From the NCBI GenBank assembly GCA_021784575.1, contig JAJYHX010000005.1, positions 1 through 64,000 on the forward strand: a stretch of DNA of 64,000 nucleotides, read 5' to 3'. Shown piece by piece: positions 3,631 to 6,780 of this stretch. A program made the position numbers and the translations under genes. The notes under the pieces were generated by a model that made no database searches, was not told the origin of the DNA, and saw nothing but the letters and a program-made list of their open reading frames with translations. The DNA is from Nitrospirota bacterium (lineage in GTDB: Bacteria > Nitrospirota > JACRHJ01). Every line of letters starts with the position of its first letter. The stretch's first letter is position 1.

Positions 3631-4068
3631 CTATAAAGTCGGCAGTTGCGACTCGGCCTTTTCCTTGAGATCGCTTAACATGCCGACGGTTATATTTCTC
3701 AGCTTCGCCTCCGGCAGAAACATCAGAAAGGTTTTAGGCCCGACGAATCTCTCCCTGCTTGTGACAAGCACCGCCCCGCCGAGATTCGTAAACAGAAACT
3801 CGTGTTTTGCAAACAGCCCGAATTTCCTGGCGGACCATACCACGCGGTCGTGCGGCACGACACATTCCACTATGGGCCTTATCGAAAACGGAAGGACGCA
3901 GGGCCTGATAATGAGCGACAGCTTCTGGCCCTCGGACATAAAATATCCCTGCGGCTTTGCGGCCTCCTTCACGGACCGGCACCAGTTGTTCCAGCAGGCA
4001 AGGTCTGTGAAGATGTCCCAGACGCGCTCCATCGCGGAGAATATGGTTACCGATTCGACTATTTCCAT
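3631..4068 (-). CDS. SRPBCC-fold protein (polyketide cyclase/dehydrase-like)
   Basis: This 145-residue protein has the small START-like SRPBCC pattern: an N-terminal strand and helix with ERVWDIFTDLACWNNWC, a central set of beta strands, and a long C-terminal helix ending LKEKAESQLPTL. Such proteins bind hydrophobic ligands; no catalytic function is implied. It lies just after the permease stop codon on the same strand. However, TATAAT at 4076-4081 is only eight bases from its ATG and there is no ribosome-binding site, so it may have its own leaderless transcript. Confidence 0.7.
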   Translation of the reverse strand: MEIVESVTIFSAMERVWDIFTDLACWNNWCRSVKEAAKPQGYFMSEGQKLSLIIRPCVLPFSIRPIVECVVPHDRVVWSARKFGLFAKHEFLFTNLGGAVLVTSRERFVGPKTFLMFLPEAKLRNITVGMLSDLKEKAESQLPTL

Positions 4069-4081: not shown

Positions 4082-6049
4082 TCACACCCTGACCGGCATC
4101 AGCATAATCGGTATGCCCTGGTTGTAGAATTGGCGCTGGACGGCGAAGATGGTGTAATTGTGCAGCATACCCGTGAAGACGCCTGGGTTCGGAAAAACGA
4201 GCTGGCCGCCGAAGAACGCGGAATTTGGGAAGCGGTCTATAATCTTCGGGGAGAGCTTGGATATTTCGCCTACGACATCCGTGCCGAACGAAGAGAAGCC
4301 TTCGGCGTACAGACCGTGAGTGCGGGCAAGCCTCATGTATTTTTCCAGGTCGTCGCCTACCCGCTTCTTCAGGGCGTCCAGCTCCTGTACGCCCTTGAAT
4401 GTTCCCGCGTCCACGACGCCTACCTCGATAAAAACAAAATTCTTGAATACGCCCCCGAACTGTCGGATTACGTTCAGAAAAGTGTGCAGACCCAGGCCGT
4501 TGTAGCCGCTTACGAGCAGGATTGCCGTCTTCCCCGCCGTGTCAAGCGCAGGCGTATTCCCCGCCGGCCCTGCCGGAGCCTCGTCCAGGCCGTATCCCGC
4601 CGCTTCGACCAGGGAGTCCAGCCTTTTTAGGAGCTTGGCGGTATTTTGATAATGACTTCTTATTAGGAACGCAAGGCCTACCAACACGCACGTTATGGCT
4701 ATCGTTATCCAGCCGCCCTCGGTGAATTTGAGCACTATGACCGTGATGAGTATGAATGTGGTCATGGAGAACCCCAGCCCGTTTATGAAGAGCTTTTTCT
4801 TCCAGTGCTCCGCCTTGCCGCGTTCAAGCCACCAGTGCCGCACCATGCCGAGTTGGGAGAGCGAGAATGTTATGAAGACGTTTATGGAGTACAGCACCAC
4901 GAGGAAATCCACCGAACCCCTGGTAATCCCCATCATCAGGAAGGCGGCGACACCCATTATAAGAATGCCTTTCTGGGTGACAAGCCTGTCTGAAAAGGCC
5001 GCGAACTTTGTCGGGAACCACCTGTCGAGAGCCATGTTCGCCAGTACCCTTGGGCCGTCGAGGAAGCCGGTCTGCGCCGCGACCAGAAGCAGTAAAGCTT
5101 CCGAAAGCAGGGTGACAATCAGCATGACGTATCCGCCCGTGCCCCAGCCTTTCGTAATGGCCTCGTAGAGCACGGCGTTCAGTGTCTTGCCTTCCACGTG
5201 CTTTACGTCGTACAGGAGATAGGCGATCATCAGGCCCAGGACCATGAACGAAAGCGAGAAGGCCATGTATCTCATGGTATGCTTGCCAGTCTTTACCCTC
5301 GGCTCCCGGAGTACCGGCAGGCCGTTTGAGACGGCCTCGATGCCGGTATACGTTCCCGCGCCCATGCTGTATGCCCTGAGGATGAGGAATATCATACCGA
5401 ATGTTCCCACGGCGGCCTGCGTATTGTGCATGTCCGCTCTTGTCGCGGAAACCATCGCCGGGAAATTGGCTGCGTTATGCGCGAACGCATAGACGATGAA
5501 AAAGACGTGAGTGATGATGAATACCATAAATAGTGGCACAAGCGGCAGGACGGATTCCTTGACGCCGCGCATGTTCATTACGGTCATGAAGAGAAGCGCC
5601 GCGAAAGCGAAGTATAGTTTGTACTGAAGCCAGGCCGCCGGAAGGAAGCTGAAAATATAATCCGCGCCGGAGGCTATGGAAAGCGTAATGGTGAGGACGT
5701 AGTCTATCAGTAGAGCGGAACCGGACAGCATTCCCGCGGTGGGGGACAGTAGTTTTGTCGCCACGAGGTAGCCGCCGCCGCCCGTGGGGAAAAGCTCTAT
5801 TATCTGCGAATAGCTGGTGCTTATTATGAATACGGTGATTGCGGAGGCGACGGCCACGAATATGGCAAGATGCACATGGCTCTGGAGGGCCAGGAACGCC
5901 TCCGCCGGGCCGTATGACGAAGACGACAGCCCGTCCGCGCCCAGGCCTACCCAGGCGAAAAAGGCTATAAGGGAGACGTTGTGGAAGATACGCGGGTCGT
6001 AGATGTCGCGCGCGCCGCCGATAATGATTCTTTTCAGACGCTCGAGCAT
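4082..6049 (-). CDS. APC-superfamily permease, KimA-like potassium importer candidate
   Basis: This 655-residue inner-membrane protein has about 12 hydrophobic segments in residues 20-460 and a soluble C-terminal part. Motifs GADGLSSSSYGPAE, FPTGGGGYLVATK and GSALLIDYVLTITLSIASG line up in order with those of Bacillus KimA (YdaO). KimA is a high-affinity K+/H+ symporter of the APC family whose expression and activity are shut down by c-di-AMP. A c-di-AMP riboswitch followed by a terminator precedes this gene, which strongly supports a potassium or osmolyte role over ordinary amino acid uptake. GGAGGT at 6061-6066 serves as ribosome-binding site and sits directly behind the terminator T-run. 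The C-terminal domain may sense a nucleotide, by analogy only. Substrate is inferred, not shown. Confidence 0.82.
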   Translation of the reverse strand: MLERLKRIIIGGARDIYDPRIFHNVSLIAFFAWVGLGADGLSSSSYGPAEAFLALQSHVHLAIFVAVASAITVFIISTSYSQIIELFPTGGGGYLVATKLLSPTAGMLSGSALLIDYVLTITLSIASGADYIFSFLPAAWLQYKLYFAFAALLFMTVMNMRGVKESVLPLVPLFMVFIITHVFFIVYAFAHNAANFPAMVSATRADMHNTQAAVGTFGMIFLILRAYSMGAGTYTGIEAVSNGLPVLREPRVKTGKHTMRYMAFSLSFMVLGLMIAYLLYDVKHVEGKTLNAVLYEAITKGWGTGGYVMLIVTLLSEALLLLVAAQTGFLDGPRVLANMALDRWFPTKFAAFSDRLVTQKGILIMGVAAFLMMGITRGSVDFLVVLYSINVFITFSLSQLGMVRHWWLERGKAEHWKKKLFINGLGFSMTTFILITVIVLKFTEGGWITIAITCVLVGLAFLIRSHYQNTAKLLKRLDSLVEAAGYGLDEAPAGPAGNTPALDTAGKTAILLVSGYNGLGLHTFLNVIRQFGGVFKNFVFIEVGVVDAGTFKGVQELDALKKRVGDDLEKYMRLARTHGLYAEGFSSFGTDVVGEISKLSPKIIDRFPNSAFFGGQLVFPNPGVFTGMLHNYTIFAVQRQFYNQGIPIMLMPVRV

Positions 6050-6063
6050 TGGATTCTTCTACC

Positions 6064-6103
6064 TCCAAAAATGAAGAGCCGCCGGGCGAACCGGCGGCTC
6101 TTT
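6064..6103 (-). terminator. Terminator hairpin in the riboswitch expression platform
   Basis: On the minus strand a 12-bp perfect stem (arms 6091-6102 and 6074-6085, 5-nt loop) is followed by TTCATTTTT. It lies between the c-di-AMP aptamer and the permease ribosome-binding site, where ligand-controlled termination would be expected. Confidence 0.8.
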
Positions 6104-6139
6104 GCACGAGCGCGGATTCCGCGCCGCATACGCTGCCAT

Positions 6140-6300
6140 GGCTGCTCTCCAAATGCCTGCGAGGTTAGCTGCCGGGCTCAGGCTTGGCAGTGCCTTATCC
6201 CCTCGAAGCGCCCGAATAAGCCGGGCAGGCTTTGTAGGGAATTCGCCCCGTAAATCACTGGTTCCCCCGCATCCACCGGTCTGCCGTTTTGACTGGTCGG
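6140..6300 (-). ncRNA. c-di-AMP riboswitch (ydaO/yuaA class)
   Basis: Read on the minus strand the leader contains, in order, GCGGGGGAACCA (from 6270 down), GGGGCGAATTCCC (6238-6250) and CCCGGCAGCTAACCTCGCAGGC (around 6153-6174). These are the conserved blocks of the ydaO/yuaA aptamer, which binds cyclic di-AMP and normally switches genes off. An expression-platform terminator follows. The 5' boundary and the P1 stem were not resolved by eye. The controlled gene, a KimA-like permease, is the classical target of this class. Confidence 0.88.
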
Positions 6301-6381
6301 CCTTTAATAAGGCCGAGCCTTCTCTGCCGCAGTCTACCGGCCCCGCATGGATTTAGGCCGCAATCTTGTTTAGCGGAAAGT

Positions 6382-6410
6382 AAAATAATCCCGTTTCATT
6401 TTGTTGTCAA
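6382..6410 (-). promoter_or_regulatory. Sigma70-type promoter for the riboswitch-permease transcript
   Basis: On the minus strand TTGACA (6405-6410) and TATTTT (6382-6387) are 17 bases apart. The predicted transcript starts near 6375, ahead of the riboswitch. The promoter lies just downstream of the DsrE-like gene's stop codon. Confidence 0.65.
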
Positions 6411-6417
6411 GAAAATT

Positions 6418-6780
6418 TTAAAACGTCATAACCTCCCGTTCCATAGCAAGTTCGACGAGCGTCAGGGCGCCGGCAATCTCGGTATTGGGGAGCAGGTCCT
6501 CCGGGTTTATGTCGAACTGCTTGGCGCACGGGGCGCAGACGTAAAACTTCTGCCCCATCTCAACCAGGGACGCAAGCAGGTCTTTTATCGGCGGAAACGC
6601 CTTCTGCTCCCCGATGGTCTCGGCAAAGCCCTTCTTGACCAGCAGAGCCCCCTCGTTTATGGTAAATATTATCACGTCAATGCCGTTCGCGGCGGCTGTA
6701 TTTGCGATTGCCAGCGCGGCACCGGCCCTCTCCTGCGCATCGAAGGAGTGCGTGGCGACCAGGAGCAGTTTTTTGTCCAT
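6418..6780 (-). CDS. DsrE/DsrF-like small protein
   Basis: This 120-residue protein starts MDKKLLLVATHSFDAQERAG and has the alternating strand/helix pattern of the DsrE/F (and peroxiredoxin-like DsrE/MrsE) fold. It contains FYVCAPCAKQFDI, two cysteines in the region where sulfur-relay members carry their active cysteine. These proteins take part in sulfur transfer or have unknown roles. It has its own promoter and a GGAGGT ribosome-binding site about eight bases from the ATG. No other sulfur-relay gene is adjacent, so the pathway is unknown. Confidence 0.75.
   Translation of the reverse strand: MDKKLLLVATHSFDAQERAGAALAIANTAAANGIDVIIFTINEGALLVKKGFAETIGEQKAFPPIKDLLASLVEMGQKFYVCAPCAKQFDINPEDLLPNTEIAGALTLVELAMEREVMTF

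Follow-up and report, generated by a model that had tools for sequence, protein, structure and literature searches.

Organization of the leader and the permease gene

The window, the whole 64-kb stretch of DNA analysed, belongs to a Nitrospirota MAG (G000) of 2.1 Mb that is 96.7% complete with 0% contamination. On its minus strand, a sigma-70-like promoter is followed by an aptamer of Rfam family RF00379, an intrinsic terminator, a ribosome-binding site and a gene for a KimA-like permease. The initial annotation had described this succession of promoter, ydaO/yuaA aptamer, terminator, ribosome-binding site and permease, and every part is present; it had confined the unit to 6064-6410, however, and the unit extends beyond that span, from 6410 to 4082. 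The promoter, the aptamer class, the terminator and the gene can be read directly from the DNA, with the following features.

6382..6410, minus strand: sigma-70-like promoter TTGACA-17-TATTTT (10/12 matches; hexamers kept in five congeners)
6133..6361, minus strand: c-di-AMP (ydaO/yuaA) riboswitch aptamer (RF00379, 65.5 bits; pairs checked)
6357..6361, minus strand: GCGGC, candidate antiterminator 5' strand, overlapping the P1 5' strand (by complementarity)
6272..6351, minus strand: genus-specific enlarged hairpin, replacing a small optional hairpin after P1 (17-88 nt between species)
6185..6190, minus strand: pseudoknot 5' half, loop CUGCCA (CUUCCA elsewhere in the phylum)
6133..6138, minus strand: pseudoknot 3' half, UGGCAG (UGGAAG elsewhere in the phylum)
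6067..6102, minus strand: intrinsic terminator AAGAGCCGCCGG-UUCGC-CCGGCGGCUCUU plus U-rich tract (stem-loop -23.8 kcal/mol; conserved)
6094..6098, minus strand: GCCGC, candidate antiterminator 3' strand, within the terminator 5' arm (by complementarity)
6062..6066, minus strand: Shine-Dalgarno GGAGG, 12 nt 5' of the ATG (from sequence; kept in congeners)
4082..6049, minus strand: predicted KimA-like K+/H+ symporter of the APC superfamily, 655 aa (from sequence and fold matches)

The Rfam search returned a strong, full-length covariance match to RF00379 at 6312-6140 on the minus strand (65.5 bits against a gathering score of 38; E 6.1e-13), which bears out the initial aptamer call, and RF00379 was the only Rfam family to reach its gathering score in the 64-kb window. 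The promoter pattern was seen once against 0.2 expected, and its TTGACA and TATTTT hexamers are common to 5/5 genomes of the genus. The permease gene starts at 6049 and comprises 655 codons. Every part of the unit is kept in four congeners, and in 4/4 of them the riboswitch lies 5' of the same permease. Two neighbouring genes run in the same direction: a DsrE/DsrF-like gene (6418-6780, minus strand) upstream of the promoter, kept in 4/4 congeners, and an SRPBCC-like gene (3631-4068, minus strand) 13 nt 3' of the permease, kept in three congeners. The latter may be cotranscribed with the permease and hence also be under the riboswitch.

Inspection of the aptamer showed that GCC (6358-6356) pairs with GGC (6157-6155) in P1 and that GCGGGG (6270-6265) pairs with CCUCGC (6164-6159) in the long-range helix. 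The ligand-binding core, assigned by class, consists of GGGGCGAAU from 6249 and CCCGGCAGCUAACCUCGCAGGC; this core and the block GCGGCCTAAA (6361-6352) are invariant in five congeners, and 12 of the 12 pairs checked in P1, the long-range helix and the conserved core form. The P1 5' strand proper is most probably GCGGCC (6361-6356), which lies 5' of the Rfam match. The strand that Rfam takes for it, a GCC inside the variable 80-nt insert hairpin, was rejected; the insert is absent from one congener. This enlarged hairpin is closed by UCC/GGA or CCC/GGG, the closing pair being U-A in three species and C-G in two, and the GCGGGG/CCUCGC helix comes next.

The loop-tail pseudoknot, which is readable from sequence in the crystallised c-di-AMP riboswitch RNA (PMC5393176), has a strand displaced by insertion at this locus. 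It covaries from CUUCCA:UGGAAG across the phylum to CUGCCA:UGGCAG in the window, and its length is 6 bp in the window and 4-5 bp in congeners, with 4 bp in two of the five congeners. The aptamer core, P1, pseudoknot, terminator-based leader and downstream KimA-type gene are common to this locus and the ydaO/yuaA riboswitch before kimA of Bacillus subtilis, whereas the locus differs in its enlarged hairpin after P1 (17-88 nt), a second enlarged hairpin, the displaced pseudoknot strand and its Nitrospirota host.

Terminator, candidate antiterminator and proposed direction of control

The terminator stem comprises 12 bp at 6102-6074. Since terminator-like sites are frequent in shuffled sequences (mean 1.0), the count alone (1 seen against 1.0 expected) is not significant and the terminator call rests on conservation: the stem, the UUCG loop and the U tract are common to 5/5 genus members, and a terminator is present in most Nitrospirota leaders.

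An antiterminator was sought in three places, and the P1-side pairing, the best of the three, was kept after the other two failed. Pairing of the aptamer 3' half with the terminator arm gave no signal (mean z -0.03). An antiterminator between the aptamer and the terminator gave a weak one (mean z -0.67, 7/33), with GGGC/GCCC being the best pairing in some families but not in the window's genus. On the P1 side, the strand overlapping P1 and the terminator 5' arm read GCAGC:GCUGC in 14 Nitrospirota leaders and GCGGC:GCCGC in 4/5 of the window's genus, an A-U to G-C double change. The pairing is perfect in 18/29 leaders, against 1.3 in shuffled arms. It is just 5 bp long, and one congener and some ten further leaders carry a mismatch; for each species of the window's GC-rich genus, about 20% of shuffles would be expected to contain a match of this length. 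Covariation supports the P1 strand, the pseudoknot and the antiterminator.

OFF switches commonly work by having P1 closure remove an antiterminator, and the covariation-backed pairing of the P1 5' strand with the terminator suggests that the leader is turned OFF by c-di-AMP. Under K+ scarcity, with little c-di-AMP in the cell, the GCGGC strand on the P1 5' side would be free to pair with GCCGC of the terminator 5' arm, the terminator would not form and the importer would be made. When K+ is plentiful, CdaA would raise c-di-AMP, which would close the aptamer and P1 and sequester the GCGGC strand; the terminator would then halt transcription directly 5' of the ribosome-binding site. We infer both the binding of c-di-AMP by the leader and this direction of control. 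At a probability of roughly 0.86, then, the leader would be a ydaO/yuaA-class c-di-AMP riboswitch that turns off a KimA-type K+/H+ importer via transcription termination.

The U tract ends right at the Shine-Dalgarno, so a structural change could affect ribosome access, and the aptamer might act on translation instead of termination or be an ON switch. We consider this improbable, because the hairpin does not include the Shine-Dalgarno, every congener and most other leaders of the phylum have a canonical terminator with a U tract, and the B. subtilis kimA riboswitch is an OFF switch (PMC10284832).

The permease, c-di-AMP enzymes and K+ supply

We compared the permease with B. subtilis KimA, a K+/H+ symporter of the KUP group. 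The sequence matched KimA (6s3k) over residues 29-479 (E 8.6e-55), and the three best PDB fold matches of an AlphaFold2 model (mean pLDDT 78.9) were 8b70, 8b71 and 6s3k, all of them KimA (E 1.9e-27 to 9.7e-22). Identity to KimA is about 23-30% (23% in the structural alignment). KimA coordinates K+ through Asp36, Tyr43, Thr230 and Tyr377 (PMC10284832), which align with D39, Y46, T235 and Y387 of the permease, and these four residues are invariant in 53 relatives. KimA has three further residues described as characteristic, Arg337, Tyr118 and Asn237 (PMC10284832), which together with a PPAT-like C-terminal domain belong to its c-di-AMP-binding features; the last two are kept as Y117 and N242, whereas Arg337, a c-di-AMP contact, is replaced by Thr347. 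Judging from sequence and fold, the permease groups with KimA, as the initial annotation had proposed, in a divergent subfamily that retains all K+-coordinating residues.

Like KimA, the permease has the APC fold, and the model predicts a cytosolic C-terminal domain with five strands plus helices, as KimA has. This domain is unalignable with that of KimA by sequence, and searched alone against the PDB by sequence it did not match KimA. Because Arg337 has been lost and no sequence match links the C-terminal domain to KimA's, inhibition of the permease protein itself by c-di-AMP is possible but not supported. The subfamily has no NCBIfam model and is widespread, at ~60% identity, in Omnitrophota, Planctomycetota, Spirochaetota and others; the nearest named relatives (89-91% identity) are from Nitrospirae MAGs, for example JAJYJM010000002 and JAJYGS010000068. 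Other Nitrospirota KimA proteins are much nearer to B. subtilis KimA (E 1e-134).

The genome contains both a diadenylate cyclase and a phosphodiesterase, for which the initial annotation had proposed a search, each evident from its sequence. The single DAC domain lies in a 254-aa CdaA (TIGR00159, 252.2 bits; equivalog cut-off 188.8), encoded in the order ftsH-folP-cdaA-orf-ybbR-glmM, with YbbR and GlmM downstream and a gene that we take, by sequence alone, to be folP. At locus L031 (5350-6954), a 534-aa membrane-protein-like frame without a Pfam match lies between cdaA and ybbR. The phosphodiesterase is PgpH-like, with 7TM-7TMR_HD and HD domains, and an NrnA-like DHH protein is also encoded. 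No GdpP-type phosphodiesterase was recognised among the DHHA1 matches of the genome, which proved to be AlaRS-like, NrnA-like and a 909-aa frame outside the family scans.

Family searches of the same genome for K+ transporters gave no match to TrkH/KtrB, KdpA or Kup and no second KimA; TrkH is absent from 6/6 genomes of the family. One channel carries Ion_trans_2, TrkA_N and TrkA_C domains. From these absences, the permease is probably the genome's sole member of a recognised K+ importer family, at 96.7% completeness. If KimA is truly the sole importer, its control by c-di-AMP should be near essential.

The same permease subfamily occurs, at about 65% identity, in four other Nitrospirae, directly 3' of a KdpD and a response regulator closest to KdpE. 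These KdpDE-KimA units, with no kdpFABC between, lie at L041:3-2963, L040:3-2772, L042:3-2289 and L101:3-2961. No riboswitch was found at any of the four loci, even at E up to 1. KdpD at these loci has KdpD, Usp and DUF4118 domains, and the L041 copies of KdpD and KdpE, identified with NCBIfam and Pfam, both fall below NCBI's strict cut-offs. In a tree built by a quick method, the KdpDE-linked permeases are sister to those that follow a riboswitch (supports 100 and 95, with 94 for the joint fork).

KdpDE and the c-di-AMP riboswitch are reported to be mutually exclusive for kdp operons (PMC6488665). The alternation of the two regulators between permease clades agrees with that report and is a separate pointer to K+ as the substrate, which we infer for the permease. 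In both cases a c-di-AMP riboswitch and KdpDE appear to be alternatives for one K+ transporter, but the Bacillus thuringiensis example concerns kdpFABC within Bacillales (PMC6488665), and the present one a KimA subfamily within Nitrospirota. The clades form a natural sister pair, in which one importer is controlled by a two-component system on one side and by a riboswitch on the other. Tentatively, and with rather low confidence, the divergent KimA could be the genus's only K+ importer and have swapped KdpDE, kept in the sister clade, for a c-di-AMP riboswitch, or the reverse, perhaps with c-di-AMP control at the RNA level only and the protein site changed.

The Pfam name of the permease is AA_permease_2 and the APC superfamily consists mostly of amino acid transporters, so it might carry amino acids or another solute, and the unit would then place uptake of an osmolyte, not K+, under c-di-AMP. 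This is slightly less probable still than the ON or translational alternative: KimA is the best match by sequence and fold, the K+ ligands are invariant in the 53 relatives, kdpDE adjoins the sister clade, and the genome is otherwise without a recognised K+ importer.

Distribution of the riboswitch in Nitrospirota

RF00379 was found in 64 of 379 Nitrospirota genomes and DAC in 193 of the 379. DAC was present in 60/64 genomes with the riboswitch and in 133/315 without it (Fisher odds ratio 20.5, p 1e-15, a p value that is too small as the species are related). At 40 loci the gene 3' of the riboswitch encoded KimA (25), Kup (11), KdpA (2), TrkH (1) or another APC permease (1, L117, counted as generic AA_permease_2 and not as KimA), so that the gene next to the riboswitch belongs to a K+ transporter family (KimA, Kup, KdpA or TrkH) in 39/40.

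The genus of the window scores 60-68 bits, among the lowest in the phylum (most others 75-96), but an aptamer that has decayed, losing c-di-AMP binding or turning to another ligand, is the least probable of the alternatives, as the low score is accounted for by the two enlarged hairpins and the P1 strand outside the match, the core is nearly identical to the crystallised RNA (PMC5393176), and a cyclase is present in the genome.

The initial annotation had set the c-di-AMP unit against a Gram-negative background. Its Nitrospirota host is indeed Gram-negative; the surprise is smaller than implied, since earlier work had described c-di-AMP riboswitches 5' of K+ transporter genes in several Gram-negative phyla, namely Cyanobacteria, Proteobacteria, Verrucomicrobia and Fusobacteria. 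Both the class itself and its association with K+ importers are likewise on record, as is its occurrence in Gram-negative bacteria (PMC6488665). We found no report of a c-di-AMP riboswitch in Nitrospirota in a literature search that covered few subscription papers, so novelty is unproven. With Nitrospirota, the c-di-AMP/K+ regulon apparently gains a Gram-negative phylum that is mostly uncultured, in which genes of four K+ importer families follow the riboswitch.

Several individual loci were also recorded. Aptamers lie upstream of kdpA at L130:1501-3134 and L135:1063-1196, despite the report that kdp riboswitches are seemingly confined to Bacillales (PMC6488665), and at L136:1-1634 an aptamer precedes a gene for TrkH (Pfam E 1.7e-69). 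In genome G012, which has a c-di-AMP riboswitch before KimA, TrkH is in three pieces with stops (C42:65951-66742) and looks like a decaying importer gene. Genome G259 carries a pair of c-di-AMP aptamers separated by 2 kb on the same strand (C228:8856-11054).
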